A stretch of DNA of 64,000 nucleotides from Marinomonas sp. SBI8L (lineage in GTDB: Bacteria; Pseudomonadota; Gammaproteobacteria; Pseudomonadales; Marinomonadaceae): the NCBI RefSeq assembly GCF_001624705.1, contig NZ_JSEO01000011.1, forward strand, positions 124,001 through 188,000. The letters are read 5' to 3'. Positions 6,546-22,335 of the stretch are shown here, one piece after another. The position numbers and the translations under genes are program-made. Within the stretch, counting starts at the first letter, position 1; every line of letters begins with the position of its first letter. Under the pieces are notes generated by a model. It did no database searches. It was not told where the DNA came from and was given only the letters and a program-made list of their open reading frames with translations.

Positions 6546-7561
6546 ATACAGGGTCTCAGGAGTCAGCACGCGTGCAGAACTATCTCTGTATTGCTGTTGA
6601 TTGGGGAACGTCAAATCTGCGTGCTTACTTGCTTGATCAAGAGGGTAATTCACTTGATCAAAGGGAGAGTAATAAAGGCATTTTAAATGTTGTACCTGGC
6701 CAGTTTGAAACCGTGCTGACTAATTTGGTCGGCGATTGGCTACGCCAAGGCTTGCCTATATTGATGGCAGGCATGGTGGGCAGTCGCACTGGTTGGCAAG
6801 AAGTTGAATATGAAACTTGCCCGCTTAGCCTAGATACCTTGGGTGAAAAACTGCACTGGTTAGAGACGGATCTAGATTGCCCTGTGGCCATTGTACCTGG
6901 CTTACAAGGACGTGGTATCAGTGGCAGCAACGACATAATGCGTGGTGAAGAAACCCAGTTATTAGGTGTGCTTGATTGGTTACAAAGCCAGCAATCTGAT
7001 GAAGATGTTTTGTGCTGCATGCCGGGTACTCACTGTAAGTGGGTGCGTATTGAGAAAGGGCAAATCAAACAATTTTCTACCACTTTCTCTGGTGAACTAT
7101 TTGCCAATATCAATCGTGATTCCAGCTTGGTCAGAGGTTTACCTAGCTTAGAAACCTTAGATGTTGAGGCCTTTAAATTAGGTTTAGTTACCAGTCAGCA
7201 AGAGGGTGGGTTGTTACATCATCTCTTTAGTGTGCGCAGTAATTACATCAGTAATGAGCTTAGCCCTGATCAAGTGCGAGATTACTTGTCTGGTGTCGTC
7301 ATAGGCCATGATGTGATGGACATGTTAAAGGCTATTTCGGTACAAGCTTCTAACACTGAAAAGGCTGAAAAAGTACACCTTATTGGTAGTCGAGCTCTGT
7401 GTGACAGATATGCTATCGCCTTGGAATCTTTGGGGATGGAACATCTTTTTATTGAGGCGGGAGAAGCCAGTATTCGCGGTCTCAAACGTTTAGCAGAGCA
7501 AAACCAAGGCTGCTTTCAAACTTTTAATCAAGAACGGAATTTAGGGGAGTGTAATCAATGA
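6542..7561 (+). CDS. dgoK: 2-dehydro-3-deoxygalactonokinase
   Basis: A 339-residue member of the DgoK sugar kinase family. The N-terminal phosphate-binding segment is IAVDWGTSNLRAYL, followed by the family regions around residues 72-80 (LMAGMVGSR) and 160 (MPGTHCKWV). It phosphorylates 2-keto-3-deoxygalactonate at O6 with ATP to give KDPGal, the substrate of the next gene product. Overlapping ATGA junctions join it to the dehydrogenase before it and to the aldolase after it, as expected for a tightly coupled pathway. Confidence 0.9.
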   Translation: MNTGSQESARVQNYLCIAVDWGTSNLRAYLLDQEGNSLDQRESNKGILNVVPGQFETVLTNLVGDWLRQGLPILMAGMVGSRTGWQEVEYETCPLSLDTLGEKLHWLETDLDCPVAIVPGLQGRGISGSNDIMRGEETQLLGVLDWLQSQQSDEDVLCCMPGTHCKWVRIEKGQIKQFSTTFSGELFANINRDSSLVRGLPSLETLDVEAFKLGLVTSQQEGGLLHHLFSVRSNYISNELSPDQVRDYLSGVVIGHDVMDMLKAISVQASNTEKAEKVHLIGSRALCDRYAIALESLGMEHLFIEAGEASIRGLKRLAEQNQGCFQTFNQERNLGECNQ

Positions 7562-8199
7562 AAGACTTTTCAACATTAATGGCCCAATTGCCTATGGTTG
7601 CTATTCTGAGGGGAATTAAACCGGAAGAGGTATTGGATCATGCTGAAGCTTTGATTGACGCAGGCTTTAGTATTTTGGAAGTGCCTCTTAACTCTCCTGA
7701 GCCTTTTAAAAGTATTGAAATGCTACAGCAAAAATATGGTGATAAAGCTTTAATTGGCGCTGGTACTGTAATGCGTAAAGATCAAGTTGAAAAGCTTGTC
7801 GAAATAGGGGCTGGATTGATGGTTTGTCCACATACGGATGTGGAGCTGATTCGAGCTGCAAAAGCCGCGGGATTATATGCTTTCCCAGGTTTTTTTACCG
7901 CTAGCGAAGCCTTTGCTGCAATGGAAGCAGGAGCGGATGCGATCAAGCTTTTCCCTGCTGAGGCTATGACATCACCGAAAGTCATTTCTGCTTTATGTGC
8001 GGTTGTCCCAAAAAGTGTTCGAATTTGCCCTGTAGGTGGTGTAACACCTGACAATATGAACGCTTATATTGATGCGGGCGCTCAGGGGTTTGGCTTAGGG
8101 TCTGCCTTGTATAAGGCAGGTCAAAGCGTGGCGACGACATCTGAAAATGCCAAGGCATTTGTTGCTGGTTGGCAGGCTATTTCAGAGGCAGCACGCTAA
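7558..8199 (+). CDS. dgoA: 2-dehydro-3-deoxy-6-phosphogalactonate aldolase
   Basis: A 213-residue KDPG/KDPGal aldolase. The short TIM barrel has the conserved early segment PMVAILRGIKPEE, GAGTV near residue 68 and the Schiff-base lysine in the motif IKLFPAE near residue 130; CPVGGV closes the phosphate site. It cleaves KDPGal to pyruvate and D-glyceraldehyde 3-phosphate in the cytoplasm. Specificity for KDPGal over KDPG rests on the adjacent dgoK, not on residues I can judge. It overlaps dgoK by four bases and the lactonase gene by one. Confidence 0.88.
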   Translation: MKDFSTLMAQLPMVAILRGIKPEEVLDHAEALIDAGFSILEVPLNSPEPFKSIEMLQQKYGDKALIGAGTVMRKDQVEKLVEIGAGLMVCPHTDVELIRAAKAAGLYAFPGFFTASEAFAAMEAGADAIKLFPAEAMTSPKVISALCAVVPKSVRICPVGGVTPDNMNAYIDAGAQGFGLGSALYKAGQSVATTSENAKAFVAGWQAISEAAR

Positions 8200-9080
8200 T
8201 GTTATCCATGACCTCTGTGAGTATTAAGCAGCACCAATTGGCCGAAGGGCCATTTTGGTGTCAGCGCAGCCAAGCTCTATATTGGGTGGACATTCCAGGA
8301 CAAGAAGTCTGGTGTTGGCATCAGTCCAGTGGATTAAGAAAAAGTTGGCGCTTCGATCAAAAAGTCTCAGCGGTATTCACCACTCAAAGTTACCGCTTAT
8401 TACTTTGTCTAGCAGACGGTGTTGCTTATTTTGATCCTGAAACAGAAGCCTTAGAGTATCTGTGCAAGCTTGATGAAGATAGGCCTAATAATCGTCTTAA
8501 TGATGCTAAGTGTGATCAGGATGGTGTGCTTTATGTTGGCTCTATGGATGATGATGAAACACTAAAAACGGGCCGTCTTTGGCAAGTTGATCAAACGGGT
8601 CAAAAGACCTGTTTATTAGATGATATTGGCATCTCCAATACGCTTGCTTGGGACTACTCTCGCGAACGTTTCTATTTTGCTGACTCAATGAAAGGGGAAA
8701 TACATGCTTTCCCTTGGCCTAACTTTCGAGATGTAAGAAGTGATACTGCTTTTGTCAAAACACCAGAGGGCTTTGGCCCGGATGGCTCTTGTTTAGATGC
8801 TGATGGCAATCTGTGGAATGCCATGTGGGGCGCAGGAAAAGTAGTGTGCTATACCCCAGAAGGGGTGACAAAGCATGTTATTGATCTGCCTTTTAAGTGT
8901 CCAACAAGCTGTGCCTTTGGCGGAGAGAAGGGTGATATTTTATTTGTCACTTCAGCCAGTGTAGGCGAGGCAAACCCTGCGGATAAGCCTTTTGCAGGAC
9001 AAGTCATCGCCATTAATTTATTTAAAACCTTAGGCATAAACGTAAGTGGCGCGCCGGGCCAAGCGTTTGCTGGAGCATAA
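8199..9080 (+). CDS. SMP-30/gluconolactonase family lactonase, probable galactonolactonase
   Basis: A six-bladed beta-propeller lactonase of the SMP-30/LRE family, about 293 residues. Metal-site motifs are visible: EGPFW near the N terminus, NNRLNDAKCD, ISNTLAWDYSRERFYFADS and PDGSCLDADGNLW. It should hydrolyse galactono-lactone from the SDR step to galactonate. I start at ATG 8199, which overlaps the aldolase stop and has AGAGG ten bases upstream; ATG 8208 is possible. The reading frame also opens at 8169 but that start lies inside the aldolase gene. Confidence 0.85.
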   Translation: MLSMTSVSIKQHQLAEGPFWCQRSQALYWVDIPGQEVWCWHQSSGLRKSWRFDQKVSAVFTTQSYRLLLCLADGVAYFDPETEALEYLCKLDEDRPNNRLNDAKCDQDGVLYVGSMDDDETLKTGRLWQVDQTGQKTCLLDDIGISNTLAWDYSRERFYFADSMKGEIHAFPWPNFRDVRSDTAFVKTPEGFGPDGSCLDADGNLWNAMWGAGKVVCYTPEGVTKHVIDLPFKCPTSCAFGGEKGDILFVTSASVGEANPADKPFAGQVIAINLFKTLGINVSGAPGQAFAGA

Positions 9081-9083
9081 AGT

Positions 9084-11054
9084 ATGAAATTAGGTGTTTG
9101 TTATTACCCTGAGCATTGGCCTAAGTCTCGTTGGCAGACTGATGTTAAAGCCATGGTTGAGATAGGCATTGAGTATGTGCGTATTGGTGAGTTTAGCTGG
9201 AGTCGCCTTGAAGGTGTTGAGGGTGAATATACCTGGGATTGGTTAGATGAAGCTCTGGAGGTCTTAGGGAATGCTGGACTTAAAGTGATTTTAGGGACAC
9301 CAACAGCTACACCGCCTAAGTGGCTGGTGGATAAGCATCCTAGTATGCTCGCTTGTGATGAAGCTGGCCAGCCAAGAGGTTTTGGTTCTCGTCGTCATTA
9401 TAGCTTTGCGAGCCTTGATTATCGCCAAGAGTGTCGTCGAATTGTGACGGATATGGCTAAGCGTTACGGTGCTCATGATGCGATTGTCGCTTGGCAAACA
9501 GATAATGAATACGGTTGTCACGATACTATTTTAAGTTATGCCGATGTGGATCTTGCTGCCTTTAAAGTTTGGTTAGCAGAAAAATATTCAAATATTGAGG
9601 CCCTCAATCAGGCTTGGGGTAATGTTTTCTGGAGCATGGAATATGCAAGCTTTGACGAAATTGAGCTGCCTAATCTGACGGTTACAGAGGCTAATCCTGC
9701 CCATAGACTCGATTTCCATCGCTGTTGTTCTGACCAAGTGGTTGCCTATAACAAGTTACAAGCAGATATCTTGCGTGAGTATTCACCAGGGCGAGATCTG
9801 GTACATAACTATATGGGTTTCTTTACCGCTTTTGACCATCACAAGGTTGGGCAAGATCTAGATGTAGCAAGTTGGGATACTTATCCTCTTGGCTTTCTGG
9901 ATCAAGAAGCAATTTACCAAGACGAAGAAAAACAAACGTATTTACGTACAGGTCATCCTGACTTTGGTGCTTTCCATCACGATTTATATCGTGGCTGTGG
10001 TAAAGGGCGCCTTTGGATTATGGAACAACAGCCGGGGCCGGTTAACTGGGCTCCCCATAACCCAACCCCTGCAGATGGCGCGGTAAGACTTTGGACTTGG
10101 GAAGCCTTTTCCCATGGGGCTGAATTAGTCTCTTATTTCCGCTGGCGACAAGCCCCATTTGCCCAAGAACAAATGCATTCTGGTTTATTAAGGCCTGATG
10201 CTTCCAAAGCAGAAGCGGCTTTTGAGGCTCAGCAAGTTTCCGATGAAATTAATCATTTAAGCCAGCAATTGGGTCTAGATAAGGATGAACTAGAAGCTTT
10301 GCCAAGTGCCGGTAGTGTCGCTTTGATGTTTGATTACGATGCCTGCTGGGCCTTGGATATTCAGCCTCAGTCTCAGGCATATCGTTATTTGTTCTGGTGT
10401 TACCGTGTTTATGAAGCGTTAAGAGAGCTTGGTTTAAGTATCGATATTATCTCGCCTAAGAGTGATTTAAGTGCTTATAAAATGTTGGTATTACCAGCGC
10501 AGGTCGTGATTGATGACATGCTGCAAAAGGCGCTTGATAAATTTGAAGGTGTTTTATTAGTTGGACCGCGCTCTGGCAGTAAAACGTCTGATTATCAAAT
10601 TCCAGATGAACTGGCGCCTGGCAAACTACAAACATTAATGCCGCTTCAAGTTGAGCGAGTTGATGCCTTACCTGAGCATACCCAGCCCTCTGTAAATGGT
10701 GCTTGGGGACAAGGTCAGCTTAAACATTGGCGTGAGCAAATAAATACTGAGTTAGCTGTTCATTTAGAAGATGAACAAGGTCAGCCTGTTCTTGTGGGTG
10801 AGGATAAGCGTTTTTATCTAGGTGCTTGTTTGGACAAGGCCTTGTTAAAAAGCTGTTTTGAAAAGCTTGCGGGACAGGCGGAATTACCTGTCTATTATTT
10901 ACCTAAAGGTGTGCGAGTGCGCCATCGCGGTAAGCTGATATTTGTCTTTAATTACGGGCAAAGCGCGGCGAATTATGTGCCATTAGGGGCAACTTGCTTG
11001 ATTGGACAAGCTCAGGTTGCGCCGGCGGGTGTCAGTATCTGGTTGAAATCGTAA
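9084..11054 (+). CDS. Beta-galactosidase, glycoside hydrolase family 42
   Basis: A 656-residue GH42 beta-galactosidase. The N terminus GVCYYPEHWP is typical. The acid/base glutamate is E142 in TDNEYGC and the nucleophile is E314 in IMEQQPGPVNW. The TIM barrel is followed by the trimerisation domain and a small beta domain, giving normal length. No signal peptide is seen, so it cleaves imported beta-galactosides in the cytoplasm. Together with the GH36 enzyme the operon can free galactose from both anomeric linkages. It is the last gene of the first transcription block; a new promoter follows it. Confidence 0.9.
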   Translation: MKLGVCYYPEHWPKSRWQTDVKAMVEIGIEYVRIGEFSWSRLEGVEGEYTWDWLDEALEVLGNAGLKVILGTPTATPPKWLVDKHPSMLACDEAGQPRGFGSRRHYSFASLDYRQECRRIVTDMAKRYGAHDAIVAWQTDNEYGCHDTILSYADVDLAAFKVWLAEKYSNIEALNQAWGNVFWSMEYASFDEIELPNLTVTEANPAHRLDFHRCCSDQVVAYNKLQADILREYSPGRDLVHNYMGFFTAFDHHKVGQDLDVASWDTYPLGFLDQEAIYQDEEKQTYLRTGHPDFGAFHHDLYRGCGKGRLWIMEQQPGPVNWAPHNPTPADGAVRLWTWEAFSHGAELVSYFRWRQAPFAQEQMHSGLLRPDASKAEAAFEAQQVSDEINHLSQQLGLDKDELEALPSAGSVALMFDYDACWALDIQPQSQAYRYLFWCYRVYEALRELGLSIDIISPKSDLSAYKMLVLPAQVVIDDMLQKALDKFEGVLLVGPRSGSKTSDYQIPDELAPGKLQTLMPLQVERVDALPEHTQPSVNGAWGQGQLKHWREQINTELAVHLEDEQGQPVLVGEDKRFYLGACLDKALLKSCFEKLAGQAELPVYYLPKGVRVRHRGKLIFVFNYGQSAANYVPLGATCLIGQAQVAPAGVSIWLKS

Positions 11055-11073
11055 AAATGTACAAAAAATAAAC

Positions 11074-11135
11074 TGAAACTTGGTTTCATTTATTGACGAA
11101 AGTGAAAATTTACTTAATACTGAAACTGTGTTCCG
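11074..11135 (+). promoter_or_regulatory. Promoter of the sugar-binding protein gene with two operator-like dyads
   Basis: TTGACG (11093-11098), a 16-base spacer and TAATAC (11115-11120) form a sigma-70-like promoter. Just upstream of the -35 lies a perfect dyad, TGAAAC-TTG-GTTTCA (11074-11088). A second, imperfect copy, TGAAAC-TGT-GTTCCG (11121-11135), begins at the base after the -10 and covers the likely transcription start. Two copies bracketing a promoter fit a repressor that responds to the imported sugar. No regulator gene for it is in the window. Confidence 0.6.
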
Positions 11136-11141
11136 TTTTAT

Positions 11142-11149
11142 AAAAATAA
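11142..11149 (+). promoter_or_regulatory. Candidate Crc/Hfq (CA) motif in the binding-protein leader
   Basis: AAAAATAA fits AANAANAA and lies in the predicted 5' leader, a few bases before the Shine-Dalgarno sequence GAGGA (11154-11158). It is identical to the element at 58-65 before the first permease gene. Crc-type control would block translation when preferred carbon sources are present. The call rests on motif identity and position only. Confidence 0.35.
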
Positions 11150-11168
11150 AAGTGAGGATCTACTCAAC

Positions 11169-12398
11169 ATGAAAACCATTAAGTCTTTAATTGCTGGTAC
11201 AGCTATGGCTGCAGCAGCTTGGTCGGTACAAGCGGGTACGCTTGTCATTAACTCAGACCAGGCCGATCCAGCGCCGAAAAAAGCTTTTGCTGAAATCGTT
11301 GAAAAATTTACCGCTGAAAATCCGGATGTCGAAATTAAGTACAACTTATACGACAAAGAAGGTTATAAAACGGCAATACGAAACTGGTTAGCAACGTCTC
11401 CACCAGATTTGGTTTTCTGGTATGCGGGTAACCGTATGAAGACCTTTGTTGAACGTGGCATGTTTGAAGATGTGAGTGATATTTGGGATAGCGAAGATCT
11501 TCACTCAAGCATGAGCACAGCAGAAGCTGCCATGACAATTGATGATAAACAATGGGGTATTCCATACACTTATTACCAATGGGGCGTTTACTATCGTAAA
11601 GATATCTTTGAAGCTCGTGGCCTAAGTGAGCCAAAAACGTGGGATGAGTTTTTAGCTGTCTCTGCGGCATTGAAAGCAGATAAAATTGCTCCGATTGCGA
11701 TCGGTACAAAATACCTTTGGACAGCGGCGGGTTGGTTCGATTATCTGAACTTACGTACTAATGGTCTGCAATTTCATATTGATCTAATGGATGGCAAAAT
11801 CCCTTACACAGACGAACGTGTACGTAAAACTTTCGAGAACTGGAAGCAATTGGTTGAACCTGGTTATTTCTTAGAAAACCATGCTTCATACTCTTGGCAA
11901 GAAGCACAGCCATTTATGTATAACGGTGATGCTGCTATGTACTTAATTGGTAATTTCATTACGCCTAACTTCCCGAAAGAGTTGGATGGCAAAATGGGAT
12001 TCTTCCAATTCCCACAAATTGATCCAAGTATTCCTATGGCAGAAGATGCGCCTATGGATACAGTGCATATTCCTAGCAAGGCTAAGAACAAAGAAGACGC
12101 TCGTAAGTTCTTGAAATTTATGGCGCGAGCTGACAACCAAACTTTGGTTAATGCTGCCTTGTTACAAATACCGCCACATAAGGATGCGCAAGCTGTTGAT
12201 AACTACTTCCTTAATAAAGGTGTGAATATGTTATCAAATGCGGCGGGTACTGCTCAGTTCTACGACCGAGATACTGCTCCGAGTATGGCGAAGGAAGGTA
12301 TGAAAGGTTTCCAAGAGTTTATGGTTAAACCAGAGCGTTTGGATGCGATTTTGAAGCGTCTTGAGAAAGTGCGTAAGCGTACTTTTAAAGTGAAATAA
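11169..12398 (+). CDS. Periplasmic sugar-binding protein of the ABC importer (family 1)
   Basis: A 409-residue extracellular solute-binding protein of the maltose/multiple-sugar type. The signal peptide is residues 1 to about 22 (cut near SVQA-GT). The mature part shows EIVEKFTAENPDVEI near the start and the Trp/Tyr-rich sugar cleft (WGIPYTYYQWGVYYRKD). It captures galactosides in the periplasm for the permeases at 80-1806. Unusually the gene is at the far end of the cluster with its own promoter, which allows the high level of binding protein such systems need. GAGGA precedes ATG 11169 by ten bases and a terminator follows the stop. Confidence 0.9.
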   Translation: MKTIKSLIAGTAMAAAAWSVQAGTLVINSDQADPAPKKAFAEIVEKFTAENPDVEIKYNLYDKEGYKTAIRNWLATSPPDLVFWYAGNRMKTFVERGMFEDVSDIWDSEDLHSSMSTAEAAMTIDDKQWGIPYTYYQWGVYYRKDIFEARGLSEPKTWDEFLAVSAALKADKIAPIAIGTKYLWTAAGWFDYLNLRTNGLQFHIDLMDGKIPYTDERVRKTFENWKQLVEPGYFLENHASYSWQEAQPFMYNGDAAMYLIGNFITPNFPKELDGKMGFFQFPQIDPSIPMAEDAPMDTVHIPSKAKNKEDARKFLKFMARADNQTLVNAALLQIPPHKDAQAVDNYFLNKGVNMLSNAAGTAQFYDRDTAPSMAKEGMKGFQEFMVKPERLDAILKRLEKVRKRTFKVK

Positions 12399-12418
12399 GC
12401 TTTCATTTGTGATGCAAA

Positions 12419-12449
12419 AGCAGTGCTCTATTAGAGTGCTGCTTTTTGT
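12419..12449 (+). terminator. Rho-independent terminator after the binding-protein gene
   Basis: AGCAGTGCTCT (12419-12429) pairs with AGAGTGCTGCT (12433-12443) through eleven positions, two of them G-U wobbles, around a three-base loop, followed by TTTTTG. It separates the galactoside cluster from the next operon. Confidence 0.75.
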
Positions 12450-12669
12450 CGTTTTAGGGCAGTATAAAATGCTCTCACCTTATTAGCTGCTCTGTTTAAT
12501 TGAATATTTAGCAATAAGCTTTTTATTAGGTTGAAGCCTAATTGATTGGAAATTAGCTTGAAAGTGCGCAAAGAACTTACTAAGTCACCTTAAATGTTAC
12601 AAAATAAGCATAGTTAGATCAGGCTTTTTGATAAATACTTAGAACCTGAATCAATGTAAGGTAATTGTT

Positions 12670-14142
12670 ATGAAAGAGCGTGTTTTATTTACAGTCTCTC
12701 TTATTCTATCAAGTATGTTTTGCTCTTTTCATAGCATGGCAGCAAGCTTGGTGTTTACTTCTAATTTACCTGACATATTGATTGCCCCAGAAAAACCAAA
12801 CCTGAGTCGATTGGCAGGCTTTGTCAGCGAGTTAAGACAAGGTAATGATGGAAAAGTGCTTTTTATCCATGGTGGGGATAGCTTGTTTCCTAATGCCTTA
12901 TCTAACTATGATTCTGGCGCGCATATGATTGATGTACTTAATCATATGCAAGTAAATCTATTTGCCGTAAATCAAAGAGAGTTTGCTAACGGAATAGATC
13001 AACTGACATTAAGGTCCAGTGAAGCTAGCTTCCCTATGGTGTTATCAAACTTACTTGATAAGCGCACCAATGAACCAGTAGAAGGGACTTTTTCTCATTA
13101 TTTATTAGATACTGGTGATGTTCGTTTTGGATTTATAACAATATTAGATACCTCTATTAATTTGACGTATTTACAGGGAGAGGTGTCAGTATTAAATGTT
13201 GTTGACTCAATTCAGCAGCTAGATAAAACATTAAGAGAAGAAGGGGCTGATAAAGTCATTTTAATTACCGAAAATGATGTAATTAAAAAACTTGATGACA
13301 GTGCTTATGAGCCGCTTGATTTAGTTTTGGTAGCGAAAGAGGGTGATGACTATATTGATACTCGCTCAACGCCAATAAAAGTATTTAGTGGCGGCCATGA
13401 TGGTGATCTCGCTGTGATTGATTTTAAGGATAAACATGCTCATGCAAGTGGACGCATTGCCAGCTATCGAGATAATCAAGAAAGTCAGTCGGTTGATCAA
13501 ACCGTGCAAAGGTATATAGATAGGCTGAATATTATTTTAGAATATGAATTAGGTGTTCTTGCTTCGCCACTTAATTCTTTACGTGAAAATATTCGTACAA
13601 AAGAAGCTGCAATAGGTAATTTGTTTGCTGACAGCATGCGAGATTATGCAAAAACCGAATTAGCTGTCATTAATAGCGGTAGTATTCGAGGCTATAGAGA
13701 GTATCCAGTTGGGCAAATATTAAAGCGTTCTCATATTAATCGCGAACTTCCTTTTGGTGATCATATTCACACCATTGAAGTGAGTACCGATGAGATTCAC
13801 GCCATGATGGAAAACTCCTTAAGTAAGGTGGATGTTTTATCAGGGCGTTTCCTTCAGATTTCTGGCTTTAATGTAAGCTATGACTTATCGCGTCAGCCTT
13901 TTGATCGGGTATTAGAAATTAATGTTGCAGGAAAACCACTCGAAGAGCGTCATTACACGCTATCTTTATCCGGCTACTTATTAAAGGGTGGAGATGAATA
14001 TGGGATGTTTAAAGATAAATCTGAGTCCTATACTTTAAAAGAGACTCGCCTGTTATGGACGATAGTGTCGGATTATATTGAGCGTCAGGAAAATGTGAAT
14101 GTAGCGCTTGATGGCCGTTTAGAAGATTTAACACCTGAATAA
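12670..14142 (+). CDS. Periplasmic 5'-nucleotidase-like protein with degenerate metal site
   Basis: A 490-residue exported protein with the two-domain fold of UshA-type 5'-nucleotidases. The signal peptide is about residues 1-24. The C-terminal nucleotide-binding domain is well kept: IGNLFADSMRDY, INSGSIRG, LPFGD, GRFLQISGFNVSYD and GGDEYGMF. The N-terminal metallophosphatase domain keeps only HGGDS. The usual TNDxH motif is TSNLPD, GNHEFD is VNQREFANG, and the later ATHxG and GGH histidines are replaced. It is probably a binding or sensory protein rather than an enzyme. The diguanylate cyclase gene starts 19 bases downstream, suggesting that it passes a nucleotide signal to that sensor. Confidence 0.75.
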   Translation: MKERVLFTVSLILSSMFCSFHSMAASLVFTSNLPDILIAPEKPNLSRLAGFVSELRQGNDGKVLFIHGGDSLFPNALSNYDSGAHMIDVLNHMQVNLFAVNQREFANGIDQLTLRSSEASFPMVLSNLLDKRTNEPVEGTFSHYLLDTGDVRFGFITILDTSINLTYLQGEVSVLNVVDSIQQLDKTLREEGADKVILITENDVIKKLDDSAYEPLDLVLVAKEGDDYIDTRSTPIKVFSGGHDGDLAVIDFKDKHAHASGRIASYRDNQESQSVDQTVQRYIDRLNIILEYELGVLASPLNSLRENIRTKEAAIGNLFADSMRDYAKTELAVINSGSIRGYREYPVGQILKRSHINRELPFGDHIHTIEVSTDEIHAMMENSLSKVDVLSGRFLQISGFNVSYDLSRQPFDRVLEINVAGKPLEERHYTLSLSGYLLKGGDEYGMFKDKSESYTLKETRLLWTIVSDYIERQENVNVALDGRLEDLTPE

Positions 14143-14161
14143 GGTTAGCTCAGGAGTTCTA

Positions 14162-16132
14162 ATGAAGTTTGAATCATTACCAAAACATTTTTTCCATTCT
14201 TTGAAATTCAAAATGTTAGTTGGTTTTGTGCTCATGTTTGCTTGCATTGGTATGATGAATTGGATTTCTATGGATAGGCTACAAACCTTTGAAAATACCA
14301 TAGTCCATAATACACAAGAGCAGCTGCCAATTATGGAAGCGGCTTCGATAATACAAATACAAGTTGCTTCCTTGTCTGGCTTGATGACTCAAATGGCTGA
14401 GTCAGACTCTCAGGCTGAGTTACGTATTGTGTCGGCTGAAATTAATCATCTGCTGAAAGGGCTCGCACAGCAGTTAGAACGTCTTAGCGATAGTAAGTCT
14501 ACAGAACACCTTTTAGCAATTTTAATGAAGCTAACGAAGAGTTTAGAGACGACGTCTCATATTCAAAATCAACATATTATTAAAAGCCAACAGGTGGCAA
14601 AAAACATTAAGTTTATTTTATCCAATTCACTGGATAGCATGGAGTATGGCAGTTTATTACATCGTCAAATTTGGATTCCTATTTCCAAAGAAATTTCGCT
14701 TTTATCTTCAAGTACAAAACTATTTGAAATTTCTGCCGCTGAAAAAAAGATAAAAAGAATTATTGCAAAGCACAAAGCCTCTAAACATTTATTGGAAGCA
14801 GATGATCAGGCGTTATTGCAGCAAATAATGGGCGATGTCGGTCTGTTTTATCAACTTAAAGTTAGGGAAGAGAAGCGCAAGGAATTGTCTAGCATTACCA
14901 CTCAAAATCAAATTTTATTGGATGGTATGACAGAGGACAGTTTACGCCTATTTGACCAGAAAAGTCAGGAAGTACAAACCAAAGCAAGTGAATTGATATC
15001 AACCATAGAGCAGACTCGATTTAACTACTTTGTGATTATTGTTTTTGGCTTAATTCTCTTTGTTTTATCTTTGCTTTATCTAAAAGAGATCTTGTTCTCA
15101 CGTCTGATTATGCTGAGTAATTTGATTCGCTCGGGCAACTTAAATAAGTATGACCTACAAAATTTCGATCTGAAAAACGAAATTGGCGATATTGCATTTC
15201 AATTGAGTAATTATCTCACCACAATTGATAGTCAACGTAATCAGTTAAAGCAGGCAAGTGAGCAACTTGCTAATGTTATTAAATTTTCAAAGTTACGGAT
15301 TGCGATTGTGCAAGATGAGCAAATTGTTTATCACAATCAGTCATTCCCTCGATTATTTGATCGCACTGAAATGCGCAATGTGGGTGAGCTTCCTGCCGAA
15401 ATTTCCAAAGCCATTACTCGCAATGGACTGATTAGGCATACAAGTTCCATTATTTTAAAGAGTTTTTACAGTGAGTCTTGGCAGAGGTGGTTTGATGTTT
15501 CCTCCGTGACCATACTGTGGGAAGGCAAGGAATCTAGCCTGATTAGTCTTGTCGATGTAACCGATAGAGAAAACGCTGCGAAAGAGTTTAAGGAAACTAT
15601 TTCGTTAGTGGAAAAAGAGTCGCAAAAAGATGCTTTAACAGGTTTATATAATCGTAAAATTTATGCTTCTACTTTGGATTTATTGGAGCAGCAATCGGCA
15701 GATGAATCCTTTGCCATGCTAGTGTGCGATATTGATAACTTTAAAGCTTATAACGATAGCTATGGGCACCAAAGTGGTGATGATGCACTGAGAGCTGTGG
15801 CTCAAACTATTGCAAGCTTCTGCCAGCATAAGGATGTGGCTTTGCGCTATGGCGGTGAAGAGTTCCTATTAGTGCTGTTTGATCGCTCTCCTGAGGGTGC
15901 CAGTGATATAGCCCAGCGAATTATTAATCAGGTACACGATTTAAATATTATCCATAAAACATCTGAGTTTCAGCGAGTAACGGTTAGTATAGGGGTTGCG
16001 ATTAAAGATGAGCCAACAGTGACTCACCCAAGAGCCTGTTTTGAATTAGCCGATCAAAGGTTATATATAGCGAAACGTAGTGGCCGTAATCAATTAATCG
16101 ACCAAAGTACCTCATTGGAATTAGAAGGTTAG
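14162..16132 (+). CDS. Membrane diguanylate cyclase with large periplasmic domain
   Basis: A 656-residue inner-membrane GGDEF protein. Membrane segments at about 18-36 and 287-308 enclose a helical periplasmic domain of about 245 residues that I do not recognise. A linker and a weak PAS-like region follow, then a GGDEF domain with the active-site motif GGEEF at 564-568. The product-inhibition RxxD site reads QHKD, so feedback inhibition is probably lost. It should make cyclic di-GMP from GTP in response to a periplasmic cue. CAGGAG precedes ATG 14162. The preceding gene encodes a periplasmic nucleotidase-like protein, an attractive ligand-binding partner; the CofD-like gene follows five bases after the stop. 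Confidence 0.85.
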   Translation: MKFESLPKHFFHSLKFKMLVGFVLMFACIGMMNWISMDRLQTFENTIVHNTQEQLPIMEAASIIQIQVASLSGLMTQMAESDSQAELRIVSAEINHLLKGLAQQLERLSDSKSTEHLLAILMKLTKSLETTSHIQNQHIIKSQQVAKNIKFILSNSLDSMEYGSLLHRQIWIPISKEISLLSSSTKLFEISAAEKKIKRIIAKHKASKHLLEADDQALLQQIMGDVGLFYQLKVREEKRKELSSITTQNQILLDGMTEDSLRLFDQKSQEVQTKASELISTIEQTRFNYFVIIVFGLILFVLSLLYLKEILFSRLIMLSNLIRSGNLNKYDLQNFDLKNEIGDIAFQLSNYLTTIDSQRNQLKQASEQLANVIKFSKLRIAIVQDEQIVYHNQSFPRLFDRTEMRNVGELPAEISKAITRNGLIRHTSSIILKSFYSESWQRWFDVSSVTILWEGKESSLISLVDVTDRENAAKEFKETISLVEKESQKDALTGLYNRKIYASTLDLLEQQSADESFAMLVCDIDNFKAYNDSYGHQSGDDALRAVAQTIASFCQHKDVALRYGGEEFLLVLFDRSPEGASDIAQRIINQVHDLNIIHKTSEFQRVTVSIGVAIKDEPTVTHPRACFELADQRLYIAKRSGRNQLIDQSTSLELEG

Positions 16133-16137
16133 TCTTT

Positions 16138-17307
16138 ATGCCAAGTATTTGGCGAAAATTGCAAATTCCTGATCCTATTCGTATCGGTAGGTCTCAAAAA
16201 ATGCCTGAATTGGGGCCGCGTATTTTATTTTTTAGTGGCGGCTCTGCATTAAATAAAATCAGCCGTTCTCTCAAAAACTATACCCATAACTCTATTCATT
16301 TGGTTACCCCGTTTGATTCTGGTGGTAGTTCAGCCAAATTGCGTGATGAATTTAATATGCCTGCTGTGGGCGATATACGTAGCCGCCTGATGGCTCTAGC
16401 CGATGAAACCGTATTAGGTCAGCCTGATGTTTATGACTTGTTTCATTATCGTTTGAATCCAGATCAGGACAATCAGACCTTAAGGCAAGAGCTACAAAGG
16501 TTGGAGTCTGGTGAACACCCTTTTATGACTAAAATTACGTCACCTTTAAAAGAGCTTATTCAGACTCAACTCTCAATTACGAATGCAAGTATCAGTCAGG
16601 ACTTTGATTTAAGAGGTGCCAGTATTGGGAATCTCATCATTGCAGGTGGATATTTAAATAATGAGCAAAAAATAGATCCTATTATTTTTCTTTTCTCACG
16701 CTTAGTGAAAGTGCTAGGAGAAGTGAAGACGATTACGGATACCTCGCACCATATGGTGACCCTGTTAGAAAATGGTGAATCCTTGGTGGGTCAACATAGG
16801 ATGACAGGTAAAGAATGTGGTGCCATCTCTTCTGCGGTAAAAGAAATCTATCTAACGCAAAATCTAATAAGTTCTAAACCTGCTGTGGTTAAGTTAGGCC
16901 ATGATAGGCATAAAATGATTCAAGACGCCGATTTAATTTGTTATCCGCCTGGTAGTTTTTATAGCAGTGTTTTAATTAACTTGGTGCCAGAAGGCGTTGC
17001 TGAGGCTATTTTGGCAAACCCTAATCCTAAAATTTATATTCCTAATTTAGGAAATGATCCTGAACAATATGGTTTAACCTTGTTACAACAGGTAGAAACT
17101 ATAATTCGGTTTGTTCATAAAGGGGAAAATGAACAGGGTTCATTAGGTGCATTAGACTTTTTATTAATCGATGAAAAGCTTTCTTATACCGGGCTAAATG
17201 AAATAGAAGCTTTAGGCGTAACAATAATAAGAGCGGATATTGCGGATGAAAAAGCGCATAAATATCATGAAAATAAGTTATCAGAAGCGTTAATCTCGAT
17301 ACTCTGA
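16138..17307 (+). CDS. CofD/YvcK-superfamily protein
   Basis: A 389-residue cytoplasmic protein of the CofD (2-phospho-L-lactate transferase)/YvcK superfamily. Visible family features are ILFFSGGSALNKIS near residue 30, TPFDSGGSSAKLRDEF, a middle GNLIIAGGYL and the C-terminal PGSFYSSVLINLVPEGVAEAI. It most resembles the CofD-related proteins catalogued with so-called GAK gene clusters, but the ATP-grasp and HPr-kinase-like partners of that system are not in this window. True F420 synthesis is unlikely with no other F420 gene nearby. Substrate and role are unknown. It is the last gene of the three-gene cassette, five bases after the cyclase stop. Confidence 0.7.
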   Translation: MPSIWRKLQIPDPIRIGRSQKMPELGPRILFFSGGSALNKISRSLKNYTHNSIHLVTPFDSGGSSAKLRDEFNMPAVGDIRSRLMALADETVLGQPDVYDLFHYRLNPDQDNQTLRQELQRLESGEHPFMTKITSPLKELIQTQLSITNASISQDFDLRGASIGNLIIAGGYLNNEQKIDPIIFLFSRLVKVLGEVKTITDTSHHMVTLLENGESLVGQHRMTGKECGAISSAVKEIYLTQNLISSKPAVVKLGHDRHKMIQDADLICYPPGSFYSSVLINLVPEGVAEAILANPNPKIYIPNLGNDPEQYGLTLLQQVETIIRFVHKGENEQGSLGALDFLLIDEKLSYTGLNEIEALGVTIIRADIADEKAHKYHENKLSEALISIL

Positions 17308-17624
17308 GTTTTTTTGATATTTTATTGTAAATAATTGGCCTTATTGGACGGTTTTGACTAGTTTTTGAACAGGAAATAAGCATAATAGCGGCCATTAAGG
17401 ATGACACCGTTCGCTAAGCAAATTATTAATTTATCCTTACCTGCTTGATGATGGTTACAAATGATAACCAAGTGTACTTTCCATTACTGTTTATTGCCGC
17501 TAGTAACCGTTAAAGTTTAATTTAAATTCTAATAAACGTGCAAAATAAGCATATCAATATATAGTTTAAATATTCATAAGTTAATGGTTTAAGTCTAATA
17601 GTTTTATACCTAAAGTGAGATTTC
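17308..17624 (+). other. 317-base intergenic region upstream of the REC-CheC gene
   Basis: AT-rich, with no open frame I would support. A short dyad, TGGTTA (17452-17457) and TAACCA (17465-17470) around CAAATGA, is the only clear symmetry and could be an operator. No convincing terminator follows the CofD-like gene, apart from a TTTTTTT run just after its stop. The start codon at 17625 has a weak Shine-Dalgarno sequence (AAGTGAG). Confidence 0.4.
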
Positions 17625-18635
17625 ATGAGTGCCAAAGTTCTTATCTGTGATGATTCCAGTGTAGCAAGAAAACAGCTTTCAAAGTTGTTGCCGGCAGATT
17701 GGACGGTCACAATTTTGTTTGCTGAACATGGTGAGCAAGCATTAGAGATTCTGGAAAGTGAAGACATAAGTTTAATGTTTTTAGACTTAAATATGCCTGT
17801 GCTTGATGGTTATCAAACCCTAGAAAGAATGCAACAAGCTCAAATGGCGACCAAGGTAATCGTCGTGTCTGGTGATGTTCAAGCACAAGCGCTTGAAAGA
17901 GTTAAGTCATTGGGGGCAATTGATTTCCTTAAAAAGCCTGCCACGAAAGACATAATACGTGCGGCGCTTGAACAGCATGGCTTTATGGGTGATGAGTCAA
18001 ATGATGATTCCCATTTAACCATGGAGGATGAGGGCATAGAGTTCTCATTAAATGACTGCCTGCAAGAAGTTTCGAACGTTGCTATGGGCCGTGCCGCTAG
18101 TGTGCTTGCCGATATGTTAGGTGTGTTTGTGAAACTGCCTGTGCCTAATGTGAATATGCTGGAAGTGAGCGAATTGCAAATGGCATTAGGCTATAACGGT
18201 GAAAGCAATCGTTATTCAGCGGTTTCTCAAGGCTTTGTGGCGACAGGCATTGCGCTTGAAGCACTATTGGTATTTTCTGATTCAAGCTTTCCTGATATGG
18301 CAAAATTATTGGGTTACCAAGAGAAGCTTAATAAGAATTCAGAAGTAGAGTTATTGATGGATGTGTCTTCGGCTTTGGTTGGGCCTTTCATTTTAGCTTT
18401 AGCCCGCCAGCTAAATATTGATTTTAGCGACAGCCACCCTGTTGTATTAGGGCAACATGTTAAGAATGATCATCTTATCAATGCGAAGAAAGCCGCGTGG
18501 AAACAAACCCTAGCAGTAGAAATTACCTATGAGGTTGAAAATTATCAAGTGAGCTGTGATTTGATTTTATTGTTTACAGAAGACTCAGTGGCCACACTTG
18601 AGAATCTACTCTCTTACTTATCGGAGGACGAATAA
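17625..18635 (+). CDS. Response regulator fused to a CheC-like phosphatase domain
   Basis: A 336-residue cytoplasmic protein. The N-terminal receiver domain has the acidic pair D9-D10, phospho-acceptor D54 in FLDLNMPVLDG, a conserved serine in VVSGD and lysine in DFLKKPA. The second half resembles CheC/CheX: residues D144, E148, N151 and P174 fit the D-x3-E-x2-N-x22-P phosphatase motif exactly, whereas the second motif near MDVSSALVGP is degenerate. It may dephosphorylate a receiver, its own or that of a partner. It overlaps the next gene by one base, so the two products are likely to work together. A flagellar or chemotaxis role is not shown by the neighbourhood. Confidence 0.8.
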   Translation: MSAKVLICDDSSVARKQLSKLLPADWTVTILFAEHGEQALEILESEDISLMFLDLNMPVLDGYQTLERMQQAQMATKVIVVSGDVQAQALERVKSLGAIDFLKKPATKDIIRAALEQHGFMGDESNDDSHLTMEDEGIEFSLNDCLQEVSNVAMGRAASVLADMLGVFVKLPVPNVNMLEVSELQMALGYNGESNRYSAVSQGFVATGIALEALLVFSDSSFPDMAKLLGYQEKLNKNSEVELLMDVSSALVGPFILALARQLNIDFSDSHPVVLGQHVKNDHLINAKKAAWKQTLAVEITYEVENYQVSCDLILLFTEDSVATLENLLSYLSEDE

Positions 18636-19594
18636 TGTCGAGTGCAGTAGATGAAATGTTAGAACTACATTGGCTGTTTGATATGATTCAAACAATCGAT
18701 GTGGGGTTAGTTGTACTGAATACAGACTTTGAGGTTGAATTGTGGAATGGTTTTATGGAAAACCATTCAGGCATTACATCTTCTAGTGCTAAAGGTAAGC
18801 CGCTTTTTTCTATGTTTGAAAATATTCCGGCAGAATGGCTAAAGAACAAGCTGAATAACGTTAAGTCATTAAAGACACCGTTTTATATCTCTTGGGAACA
18901 GATGCCACACCTATTCCCATTTACCTCTTATCGCCCGATTACTAGTTTGGCTGATAAGATGTACCAGAATGTGACTTTGAGACCGATTTCCCATGTTGAT
19001 GGCTCAATTAAACACTTATGCATGGTTATTTATGATGTCTCTGACATCGCTACTAGTAAGGTTTCTCTTTCCAGTGTGAATGTGAAATTGGACTATGTTA
19101 AGCGCAATGACATGGTGACCGGTCTTAAAAACAGAACCAGCCTTGAGCATGTACTCGCTACCAATTTTACTGCTTTTCAAGAAGATACCAGCACTAATCA
19201 TTCTCTTATCCTGATGGAAGTTGATAATTTAAGACAATTCCATCTAGAGCATGGTTACACAGTCGGAGATGAAGTCTTTGAAAAAGTGGCTGAATTATTA
19301 GGTGAATCAGTCCGTCCTGGAGACTTTGTTAGTCGTTTTACCAGTGGTATGTTTGCAATTCTGTTAACCAATGTGACTCAGGTGAAAGCCGAACAATATA
19401 GCCAAGGTTTAGCAAAACGCGTAGCCTCCACTAAGTTTGCTACCTCAAAAGGGGATATTAAATTAACCATGAGTTTTGGTGTTGCTCAAACTCGTGAAAC
19501 GGATTCCTCTTCAGAAGACTGGTTAGGTCGTGCTGATCAAGCATTATTTGCCGCACAAACTAAGGGTGGGAATTGCTCCGAAGGTGCGGTATAA
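18635..19594 (+). CDS. PAS protein with degenerate GGDEF domain
   Basis: A 319-residue cytoplasmic protein. An N-terminal PAS domain (about 12-140; VGLVVLNTDFEVELWN) is followed by a GGDEF fold beginning near KRNDMVTGLKNRTSLEHVL. The catalytic signature is lost: the GGDEF position reads TSGMF in VSRFTSGMFAIL, so diguanylate cyclase activity is not expected. It may serve as a nucleotide- or protein-binding effector. Start ATG 18635 overlaps the stop of the REC-CheC gene (TAATG) with GGAGG upstream, and a strong terminator follows, so the two genes form a closed unit. Confidence 0.8.
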   Translation: MSSAVDEMLELHWLFDMIQTIDVGLVVLNTDFEVELWNGFMENHSGITSSSAKGKPLFSMFENIPAEWLKNKLNNVKSLKTPFYISWEQMPHLFPFTSYRPITSLADKMYQNVTLRPISHVDGSIKHLCMVIYDVSDIATSKVSLSSVNVKLDYVKRNDMVTGLKNRTSLEHVLATNFTAFQEDTSTNHSLILMEVDNLRQFHLEHGYTVGDEVFEKVAELLGESVRPGDFVSRFTSGMFAILLTNVTQVKAEQYSQGLAKRVASTKFATSKGDIKLTMSFGVAQTRETDSSSEDWLGRADQALFAAQTKGGNCSEGAV

Positions 19595-19613
19595 AATACA
19601 AAAAATGATCACT

Positions 19614-19645
19614 AAAAAAGCCCTGATTATTTCAGGGCTTTTTTT
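19614..19645 (+). terminator. Rho-independent terminator
   Basis: GCCCTGA (19620-19626) and TCAGGGC (19632-19638) form a perfect stem with flanking A and T runs; TTTTTTT follows. It ends the REC-CheC/PAS-GGDEF unit. Confidence 0.9.
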
Positions 19646-19707
19646 ATGCAAGCGTTACCCTTATATTTTGTATTTTAAGGCCCTGTTTACCTATTGGGTG
19701 TGACAGT

Positions 19708-19727
19708 TTGATATGAACCTATATCAA
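19708..19727. promoter_or_regulatory. Dyad upstream of yeaD
   Basis: TTGATAT (19708-19714) and ATATCAA (19721-19727) form a perfect seven-base inverted repeat around GAACCT, about 100 bases before the mutarotase gene. It could be an operator. The spacing rules out a normal FNR site. Confidence 0.35.
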
Positions 19728-19824
19728 GACTAGTGAATTAAACCTAAGTAAACCTCAAATGGTCTTATATTAATTTAGTGAGCTTATCGCTAATATGCTG
19801 CTTCGGCTAATTGAGGAGAGTTAA

Positions 19825-20730
19825 ATGGACAAGCAATTGATGGAAGACCTAGAAATGGTAGGGGGAGTGTTAACCCCGACGAGTCTTCGCGGTTGTGATG
19901 AAATTTTAATAGAACAGCCAGGCTTTAGTGCTCGTATTGCACTTTGGGGTGGTCACTTGGTTAGCTTTATACCAGAAGGTGAAGAAGACCTATTGTTCCA
20001 ATCCAGCCAAGAAACTCGTGATTCACGTTTTTCTAGAATCCATATGGGCGTGCCCATTTGTTGGCCTTGGTTTGGGGCACATGAGACGAATAAAGATTTG
20101 CCTGCCCATGGGCTTGCTCGATACTTTCGTTGGCAGCTGGCGGAAGCTGGGCACTTTAAAAATGGTGATGTTAAAATTCAGTTAAAGCTAGCGTCAGAGC
20201 AACATCCTCTGATTGAAGATATGTGGGCAGATGCATTTGAGCTAAGGCTAGTATTTCGATTAGGTGATGGCTTCGAAGTTAACTTCTCTGCTGCCAATCT
20301 ATCCGATAATGATGTGAAAATTTCTGAAGCACTACACACTTACTTTAATGTGGGTAATAGTGAACAGGCCGAAGTGAAAGGTTTAGAAACCTGTCAGTAT
20401 CAAGACAAGTTTGAAGGGATTTCATCGGTTCAGTCTGGCTCTATTCAACCTTGCACCGAGTTAGATCGAGTCTATCTAGATACGCCAGATACCAGTATTT
20501 TAGTTGATCCTGTTTTTGGTCGTACTCTTACCATAAGCCAAGAGGGCGCAGCGAGTACTGTGGTGTGGAACCCAGGCGCGGAAAGAGCAAAAGAACGTGT
20601 TGATTTACAGGATGATGAATACTTAAACTTTGTGTGTGTTGAAAGCGCTAATGCACTGTCCAATGCCTATACCTTAACACCAGGATCGATTCATCAGCTT
20701 AAGCTAAAAGTAAAATGGGAAAAGCACTAA
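19825..20730 (+). CDS. yeaD: D-hexose-6-phosphate mutarotase, YeaD type
   Basis: A 301-residue galactose-mutarotase-like protein of the YeaD/glucose-6-phosphate 1-epimerase subfamily. Typical segments are ALWGGHLVSFIP, GVPICWPWFG, HGLARYFRW and SEALHTYFNV, and the late VVWNPGAE. It speeds alpha-beta interconversion of hexose 6-phosphates in the cytoplasm. GAGGAGAG precedes ATG 19825. It is a single-gene unit between two terminators. A link to the galactoside operon 7 kb away is possible but not shown. Confidence 0.85.
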   Translation: MDKQLMEDLEMVGGVLTPTSLRGCDEILIEQPGFSARIALWGGHLVSFIPEGEEDLLFQSSQETRDSRFSRIHMGVPICWPWFGAHETNKDLPAHGLARYFRWQLAEAGHFKNGDVKIQLKLASEQHPLIEDMWADAFELRLVFRLGDGFEVNFSAANLSDNDVKISEALHTYFNVGNSEQAEVKGLETCQYQDKFEGISSVQSGSIQPCTELDRVYLDTPDTSILVDPVFGRTLTISQEGAASTVVWNPGAERAKERVDLQDDEYLNFVCVESANALSNAYTLTPGSIHQLKLKVKWEKH

Positions 20731-20760
20731 CTTTATTCAGGACGGGACAATATTAAGACC

Positions 20761-20791
20761 AAAAAAAGGGCATATTAAATGCCCTTTTTTT
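20761..20791. terminator. Bidirectional terminator between yeaD and crc
   Basis: GGGCAT (20768-20773) and ATGCCC (20779-20784) with a five-base loop, flanked by seven As on the left and seven Ts on the right, can end transcription from both convergent genes. Confidence 0.9.
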
Positions 20792-20792
20792 A

Positions 20793-21569
20793 TTAATCGA
20801 TATCGTATTCCATGATAAGTGGTGCATGGTCTGCAAAGCGCTGGTCTTTGTATACGCTACCTGAGCGTATTACTTGTTTTAAGCCCGGCGTAGTAATTTG
20901 GTAATCCAAACGACCACCTTCATCTAATTTCCAAGCACGCTCATAATCTGGCCACCAAGTATACTGCTTGTCTTGCTTGTTGATCTGACGATAAGCATCT
21001 ATGTACTCATGCTCATTAAAAATTTCGTTGATCCACTGACGCTCTTCAGGCAAGAAACCTGAGTTGCGCTGATTCACAAACCAGCTGCTGACATCAATAG
21101 GAGAGCGGGCAACATTTGCTGTTCCACAGAAGATAAACTCTCTGCGCTTACGGCGAGTTTTAATTAGGTGATTCTTAAAACCTTCCATAAAAGCGTATTT
21201 GTGATCTTGTAACTCTTGTTCGTGATTAGAGCCATGAGGAGCCAAGAAAGAGGCGATACTCACTTTGTCAAAGTCTGCCTGAATGAATCGGCCTTCGAAG
21301 TTGCATTCACTAAAGCCTATGCCTGTCATGATGGCTTTTGGCATCTTCTTACAATAAATCGCTACGCCTGCAGTGTCAGGGTCATTTAATGAGTCAAAAA
21401 AATACGTGTTATACCCTGCTGGAAAAAAGACGTTATCGTTTAAGCTGGCTTCTTCTGCCTGAATATCTTGTAGACACACTACATCTGCGTCTTGTTTTAC
21501 CATCCAATCAAAAAAGCCGCGGTCTGCTGCTTGTCTGATACCGTTTACATTAAGGCTTATGACCTTCAT
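20793..21569 (-). CDS. crc: Catabolite repression control protein Crc
   Basis: A 258-residue protein of the exonuclease III fold. It matches the pseudomonad Crc pattern rather than an active nuclease: the catalytic glutamate of LQE is D35 (VCLQDIQAE), and the GDxN loop is C148-G149-T150-A151-N152, so the metal-binding aspartate is lost. The DHAPLI motif remains. Crc acts with Hfq to block translation of mRNAs carrying A-rich CA motifs during growth on preferred carbon sources. Divergent placement beside pyrE is the classic Pseudomonas arrangement and supports the assignment. Annotation pipelines may call it exodeoxyribonuclease III. Confidence 0.88.
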
Positions 21570-21687
21570 TTCTGGTCCCTACAATTCAATGCCATGTGTT
21601 ATATTAGCGCCTATCTTAATTGAGGCTTTGTTCGCGAGCCTTCTAGAAGCACGCTTTTCGTTTATTAATGCAATTTTGGAGCCAGGT

Positions 21688-22335
21688 ATGAAACCTTACC
21701 AAAAAGAATTTATCGAATTCGCCATTTCTCAGGGAGTACTGAAATTTGGTGAATTTACCCTTAAATCTGGTCGAGTTAGTCCATATTTTTTTAATGCAGG
21801 ACTGTTTAACTCAGGTCAAGCGCTTGCCAAACTAGGTCGCTTTTACGCTGCCGCTTTGGTTGAAGCGAATGTCCCTTACGATGTTTTGTTCGGGCCTGCC
21901 TATAAGGGTATTCCTTTGGCAACAACTACAGCTGTTGCCCTTTATGATCATCATAATGTAGACACCCCTTATGTTTTCAACCGCAAAGAGAAAAAAGCAC
22001 ACGGTGAAGGTGGTAGTCTTGTTGGTGCGGAACTTAAAGGCCGCATCATGATTATTGATGATGTTATTACTGCAGGCACTGCCATTCGTGAAGTGATGGC
22101 CATCATCTCTGAAGCAAATGCATCACCAGCGGGTGTGCTGATCGCTCTAGATCGACAGGAACGTGGACAAGGTGAGTTGTCTGCCATTCAAGAAGTCGAG
22201 CGCGACTTTGCTATGCCTGTTATCAGTATCGTCTCTCTTAATGACATTATGACTTATTTAGCGGAACAAGATTCTGAGGCTTTCTCTCAGCACCTTGAAG
22301 CGGTAAAAGCATATCGTGATCAATATGGTATCTAA
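21688..22335 (+). CDS. pyrE: Orotate phosphoribosyltransferase
   Basis: A 215-residue PyrE. The PRPP-binding motif is [15 protein letters not shown] and the N terminus [21 protein letters not shown] is typical. It converts orotate and PRPP to OMP in pyrimidine synthesis. I start at ATG 21688, with GGAG eight to ten bases before it; the frame is open back to 21559 but that extension has no family counterpart and overlaps the crc start. It is divergent from crc with about 118 bases of shared upstream region. Confidence 0.95.

Follow-up and report, generated by a model that had tools for sequence, protein, structure and literature searches.

A catalytically dead 5'-nucleotidase homologue and a diguanylate cyclase form a conserved gene pair and a putative two-gene receptor in Marinomonas

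In Marinomonas sp. SBI8L, the gene of a catalytically dead 5'-nucleotidase homologue (protein 1) is followed directly by that of a membrane-bound diguanylate cyclase, and judged by gene content across the genus it is this pair, not the trio formed with the adjoining CofD-like gene, that is the conserved unit. The pair probably encodes a receptor in which the secreted nucleotidase homologue binds a nucleotide- or nucleoside-like ligand and thereby gates the cyclase encoded downstream. The features concerned are listed in Table 1, with positions given in the window, that is, the whole stretch of 64,000 nucleotides analysed. The three open reading frames lie on the same strand with spacings of 19 and 5 bases, just as the initial annotation had it.

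Table 1. Features at the pair locus and its flanks, in window coordinates.
Feature	Position	Strand	Remarks
Terminator-like hairpin, 14-pair stem	12416..12446	+	directly 3' of the sugar-binding-protein gene; consensus scan
Pseudo-5'-nucleotidase ORF, 490 aa (protein 1)	12670..14142	+	UshA/CD73 homologue
TSNLPD, residues 30-35	12757..12774	+	replaces the metal-binding TND-x-H motif
VNQREF, residues 100-105	12967..12984	+	replaces xGNHEF
Retained pocket stretch	13594..13995	+	R309, N335, R340, F362, Y436, D442
Inner-membrane diguanylate cyclase ORF, 656 aa	14162..16132	+	TM, periplasmic domain, TM, cytoplasmic linker, GGEEF domain
Periplasmic sensor domain, about residues 39-288	14276..15025	+	
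GGEEF active-site motif	15851..15865	+	QHKD in the RxxD place upstream
TIGR04357 CofD-like protein ORF, 389 aa	16138..17307	+	conserved neighbour, outside the proposed receptor pair
Response regulator	17625..18635	+	C-terminal match to CheX/CheC-like, weak
PAS-GGDEF protein	18635..19594	+	degenerate motif SGMF in own genome

The dead nucleotidase was detected in 26 of the 49 genomes of the genus, with one match each (E 1e-60), and in G403, a genome from another family of the same class. In all 27 the cyclase gene lies directly downstream on the same strand, with gaps ranging from -26 to 27 bases, and no genome of the genus carries two pairs. The co-occurrence and order that the initial annotation had expected of three genes thus held for the pair (27/27) and failed for the trio, found in 14 of the 49 genus genomes; 12 have the pair away from CofD and 23 have CofD without the pair. 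The last seven pairs (G426-G429, G431, G434 and G435) came to light once the pattern was already known, and every one fitted it. A scan of named genomes for protein 1 gave a single locus, in Marinomonas sp. MED121, which is the same as G433 and was counted once. The pair occupies several different gene neighbourhoods. Of the 12 pairs that do not adjoin CofD, 10 (L126-L129, L131, L132, L191, L193, L194 and L197) have a convergent MFS transporter gene (MFS_1) directly after the cyclase. The L130 pair adjoins the LysR-type gene of the MFS-type neighbourhood, the L125 pair is located elsewhere, and the MFS gene was seen neither at the CofD-locus pairs nor at the pair in G403.

Nineteen of 369 genomes of the class passed the protein 1 profile at E 1e-25. 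The only one outside the genus to come near the family was G403, whose sequence is itself part of the profile (4e-170, the next being 8e-63). By BLAST, the G403 protein scored 192 bits against protein 1 of the window. Nine of the 18 other places in the class were looked at; a nucleotidase reading frame was marked in seven and none in two. These seven weaker homologues all keep GNHE and none has a directly adjacent cyclase, one of them (L158) being followed two reading frames further on by a GGDEF-EAL gene. Nor is a cyclase adjacent to either of the two catalytic paralogues in the SBI8L genome, and none of 12 candidate stretches on viral contigs was a relative.

Protein 1 matches the Pfam family PF02872 (5_nucleotid_C) at residues 305-449 with 97.9 bits (cut-off 23.6) and no other Pfam family up to E 0.1. 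It is homologous to UshA/CD73 5'-nucleotidases over both domains, including the pocket, with Pfam detecting the C-terminal domain only, but the catalytic and metal residues of these enzymes are lost. Its PDB matches are 5'-nucleotidase-type proteins, and it falls below the curated UshA score (NF007109, 85.5 bits, cut-off 600). The residues were compared in an alignment of 27 relatives and six catalytic homologues. Four of these six were already known to carry the motifs, and conservation among them is therefore not independent evidence. The 27 members do not include the weaker class matches L157, L162 and L163, nor L133, a paralogue in G023 which keeps GNHE and lacks the first-motif His.

The loss of TND-x-H, GNHE and the later histidines, first noted in the window, proved to be real and common to the relatives compared. 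In the window the metal-binding Asn has become Gln102 and the catalytic His Arg103. Among the 27 members the catalytic His of GNHE is invariably Arg, the Asn ligand position is Gln, Arg or Lys, the first-motif His is replaced by Pro or Ser, and the later His of T-H-x-G is gone. The first-motif Asp survives in a single member, and the GGH position, in a region that aligns poorly, is His in one. By its sequence, protein 1 is a catalytically dead UshA/CD73-type homologue with a C-terminal pocket that is largely kept. An N-terminal hydrophobic segment exceeds a simple threshold in 15 of 20 nucleotidases, that of the window included, and we infer that protein 1 is secreted to the periplasm.

The retention of the nucleotide pocket, likewise proposed initially, was borne out for the most part across the family. 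The residues R309, R340 and D442 are present in 27/27 members and N335 in 21/27, and the stacking positions of F362 and Y436 are Phe or Tyr in 26 and 27 of the 27, respectively. In the alignment the six pocket residues correspond to what we take to be R354, N390, R395, F417, F500 and D506 of CD73. The kept residues could serve another ligand. Thus, protein 1 might still control the cyclase as one half of a receptor pair that responds to a protein, a polymer or a cell-wall fragment, or to no small molecule at all. Hardly any metal ligands are left, N335 is replaced in six of the members and F362 gives way to Tyr or His in 11, and specificity may for these reasons have drifted. The invariance of both arginines and the aspartate and the strictly aromatic Y436 position argue against such a change of ligand, which we regard as unlikely.

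The second protein contains a GGDEF domain (PF00990, 144 bits) and has no EAL match. The GGEEF motif and the QHKD found instead of the RxxD inhibition site agree with the initial description, as does the periplasmic domain, given there as 245 residues and here as about 250 bounded by two hydrophobic segments. Judged by the motif, the cyclase of the window is predicted to be active; of the 27 paired cyclases, 24 have GGEEF and three GGEEL. RxxD is missing in 26 of them, the exception being the cyclase of G403, with RDTD. In L191, L193 and L197, two more short genes for diguanylate cyclases, with R-x-T-D at the inhibition site, are located beside the pair.

The sensor domain of the window has no Pfam match, and in five of 11 relatives weak matches to 4HB_MCP_1 (best 4e-5) were seen beside scattered matches found in single members. 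A sensor profile searched against solved structures gave nothing meaningful (best E 0.19, to designed helical proteins and a tRNA ligase) and found no TorS chain by sequence; plasmids held no match to the domain. In the 369 class genomes the profile matched seven, the SBI8L genome included. BLAST showed a nucleotidase homologue nearby in only one of the other six, G403; two of these six contigs are short. Sensor domains from the CofD locus are related to those from other loci, the latter represented by a profile of six genus members and G403 (hhalign probability 97.1, E 5e-11, 220 columns).

Phylogenetic trees were made for the nucleotidases of 20 pairs with five catalytic outgroups, and for the cyclases (20 rows). 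The 11 CofD-locus pairs included form a group in both trees, and so do G403 and all but one of the eight other-locus pairs. The exception, L125, is a solitary long branch placed differently in the two trees; L089, like L125, received a long-branch flag. The largely matching trees, together with the constant position of the cyclase directly downstream, support a genetic tie between protein 1 and the cyclase. Co-evolution beyond shared history was assessed in the 14 trio genomes with 999 permutations. Protein 1 and the sensor domain gave a partial r of 0.11, with 131/999 permutations as high and with sensor distances near saturation, and protein 1 and the GGDEF domain gave 0.49 (0/999). Since the comparisons of protein 1 with CofD (0.55) and of the sensor with CofD (0.89) were also at 0/999, the test does not single out the pair.

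Adjacency alone is no proof of contact and may reflect co-expression only. Protein 1 and the cyclase would then be operon partners that do separate work, protein 1 acting for example as a nucleotide-binding helper in uptake, as could be suggested by the negative co-evolution test against the sensor domain and by the transporter gene flanking most of the genus pairs away from CofD. This gene is, however, convergent to the pair and confined to that one type of neighbourhood, and an invariable pairing with a cyclase across different neighbourhoods and two families speaks for a functional connection. We therefore hold partnership without contact to be distinctly improbable.

The third protein belongs to the CofD family (PF01933) and scores 510 bits against TIGR04357, the 'GAK system CofD-like protein' (cut-off 340). 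The F420 CofD model gave no match, and TIGR04357 and TIGR01826 were the only NCBIfam hits at E up to 0.1. The initial annotation was right that no GAK partners are nearby, and needs the correction that the CofD-like protein is itself of the GAK-system family by score. Its partner families, the TIGR04356 ATP-grasp protein, the TIGR04355 HprK-related kinase and the TIGR04354 amphi-Trp protein, have no match in the whole SBI8L genome. Nothing on the GAK system with CofD was found in the open-licence PMC literature. CofD is present in 49/49 genus genomes, 48 of them over the cut-off, and in eight of the 369 class genomes at E 1e-60, SBI8L included. In one genus genome (G011, locus L065) it is broken into pieces, with the response regulator and GGDEF genes remaining. 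The three GAK partner families lie on the CofD contig within about 10 kb in G319, G415, G273 and G420. Seven genus genomes were checked: SBI8L and G001 have no partner over the cut-off, and in the other five the partners lie either on a different contig or at a distance of more than 0.9 Mb from CofD. TIGR04357 CofD is thus genus-wide even though GAK kinases were not found in some genomes, SBI8L among them. In genomes without these kinases it would appear to have a stand-alone role.

The CofD tree (39 rows, with a long-branch warning) places the 14 trio rows together with L060 and L064, which have no pair, on one side of a supported branch (95/94). The simplest history is a single arrival of the pair at the CofD locus followed by two losses in which CofD was kept. 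Where the pair lies elsewhere, as in 12 genomes, the position of CofD is unchanged.

CofD had been put forward initially as a cytoplasmic effector of the pair, which would make a three-part unit. Adjacency in 14 of the 49 genus genomes, the gap of five bases in the window and the grouping of the trio rows in the CofD tree might be taken in favour of this. The distribution argues otherwise: CofD is universal in the genus and the pair is not (26/49), 12 pairs lie away from CofD and 23 genomes have CofD alone, L060 and L064 kept CofD without the pair inside the trio block, and G403 has the pair without any TIGR04357 match. As a third component CofD was rejected on these grounds, the three-part unit being highly improbable, and gene content suggests that CofD is probably a positional neighbour with a separate role. 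There is equally little to recommend protein 1 as a hydrolase with an altered, metal-poor chemistry, for which one could cite a bridging Asp70 position occupied by Asp in 16, Glu in 10 and Gly in one of the 27 members and several former-site residues whose replacements are conserved across the 11 CofD-locus members, given that nearly all ligands and the catalytic His are lost throughout and that the same genome encodes a catalytic UshA (726 bits, cut-off 600) and NadN (487 bits, cut-off 436), so that there is no enzymatic need for the dead copy.

The genes after CofD are more constant companions. Of the 37 loci compared, 36 have a response-regulator gene after CofD, and all 37 have a PAS or PAS-GGDEF gene there. 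If CofD has a signalling partner, these two are, on gene order, the better candidates. The PAS-GGDEF gene is full length in 24 of the 37 loci and in 13 cut to about 155 residues, with the GGDEF domain missing; 21 of the 24 full-length copies have GGEEF, and the degenerate motif of the window is shared with MED121. In one lineage a large hybrid kinase gene was observed upstream of the pair or, in genomes lacking it, of CofD (L048, L058-L060, L063, L064, L192, L195 and L196); two copies scanned had the order MASE1-CHASE-histidine kinase-receiver.

Upstream of the pair, the terminator scan of the region returned five sites against 3.0 expected by shuffles, the one in Table 1 having the longest stem of the five. 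This hairpin probably separates the pair from the sugar genes upstream and, since it lies right after the gene preceding the pair, transcription of the pair probably starts from a promoter of its own. The number of promoter-like matches across the region was not above chance (14 found, 16.9 expected). Compared with MED121 (L032) in 500-base bins over window positions 4500-22000, the upstream sugar genes have 81-94% DNA identity, the trio 71-77% with one bin without a match, and the stretch downstream of the trio 71-88%. The G+C content drops to about 0.38 across 12-18 kb of the window.

The proposed receptor may be depicted as follows. The genes compared show a lost catalytic site, a retained pocket, an intact cyclase motif and invariable pairing in several neighbourhoods and two families; contact between the two proteins, the ligand and the direction of control are what we infer from them. 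The ligand, a nucleotide, a nucleoside or a related compound, would sit between the C-terminal pocket, made up of two stacking aromatics, two arginines and one aspartate, and the remodelled former active site, of which the invariant Arg in the position of the catalytic His would be a part. The two domains of UshA-type proteins swing when a ligand binds, and a ligand-dependent form of protein 1 would therefore dock on, or leave, the cyclase. Docking on its periplasmic domain, or leaving it, would change the synthesis of c-di-GMP.

The closest functional parallel appears to be NspS-MbaA of Vibrio cholerae, in which NspS carrying norspermidine is believed to associate with MbaA, promoting the synthesis of c-di-GMP (PMC8967002). 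The proposed receptor would likewise combine a ligand-binding protein in the periplasm with a membrane-bound maker of c-di-GMP, and its partner and cyclase genes are adjacent in every case. NspS is described as a periplasmic binding protein, and MbaA also has an EAL domain (PMC8967002); the partner here is a dead 5'-nucleotidase and not a solute-binding protein, and the cyclase here has no EAL match. The logic would be the same with a different partner protein. TorT-TorS and LuxP-LuxQ similarly couple a periplasmic protein to a membrane sensor, all helical in TorS, but the outputs are histidine kinases and the partner proteins differ (PMC8534201). Control of c-di-GMP by purines has a precedent, as the cyclase VC2224 of V. 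cholerae (dCache_1PU) is described as sensing purines directly (PMC11245519). There too an extracytoplasmic purine signal acts on a GGDEF cyclase, but it is the dCache domain of the cyclase itself that binds the purine, and no partner protein takes part (PMC11245519).

Judged by sequence, the pair is outside the catalytic 5'-nucleotidases and outside the receptors that use solute-binding proteins. No published description of a nucleotidase-cyclase pair was found in searches of the open-licence PMC literature; what they gave on extracellular nucleotides and c-di-GMP concerned an enterococcal nucleotidase, not such a pair. We tentatively suggest, at somewhat less than even confidence, a new receptor class in which a dead nucleotidase reads phosphate with a fixed Arg and domain closure gates the cyclase through its periplasmic domain. 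The absence of the usual product-inhibition site belongs to this class within the genus, the out-of-family support for the pair being one genome, G403, whose cyclase has RxxD.

Few diguanylate cyclases have a known input. The conserved pair points to a concrete one, namely nucleotides or nucleosides in the periplasm, and supplies named residues for it. It also suggests recruitment of an enzyme fold as the partner of a cyclase, the known case found, NspS-MbaA, using a binding protein. Dissolved nucleotides are likely both a nutrient and a signal of lysis in the sea. If the proposed receptor is true, dissolved marine nucleotides would be linked to biofilm decisions, and the bacteria could react to the nucleotides around the cell.
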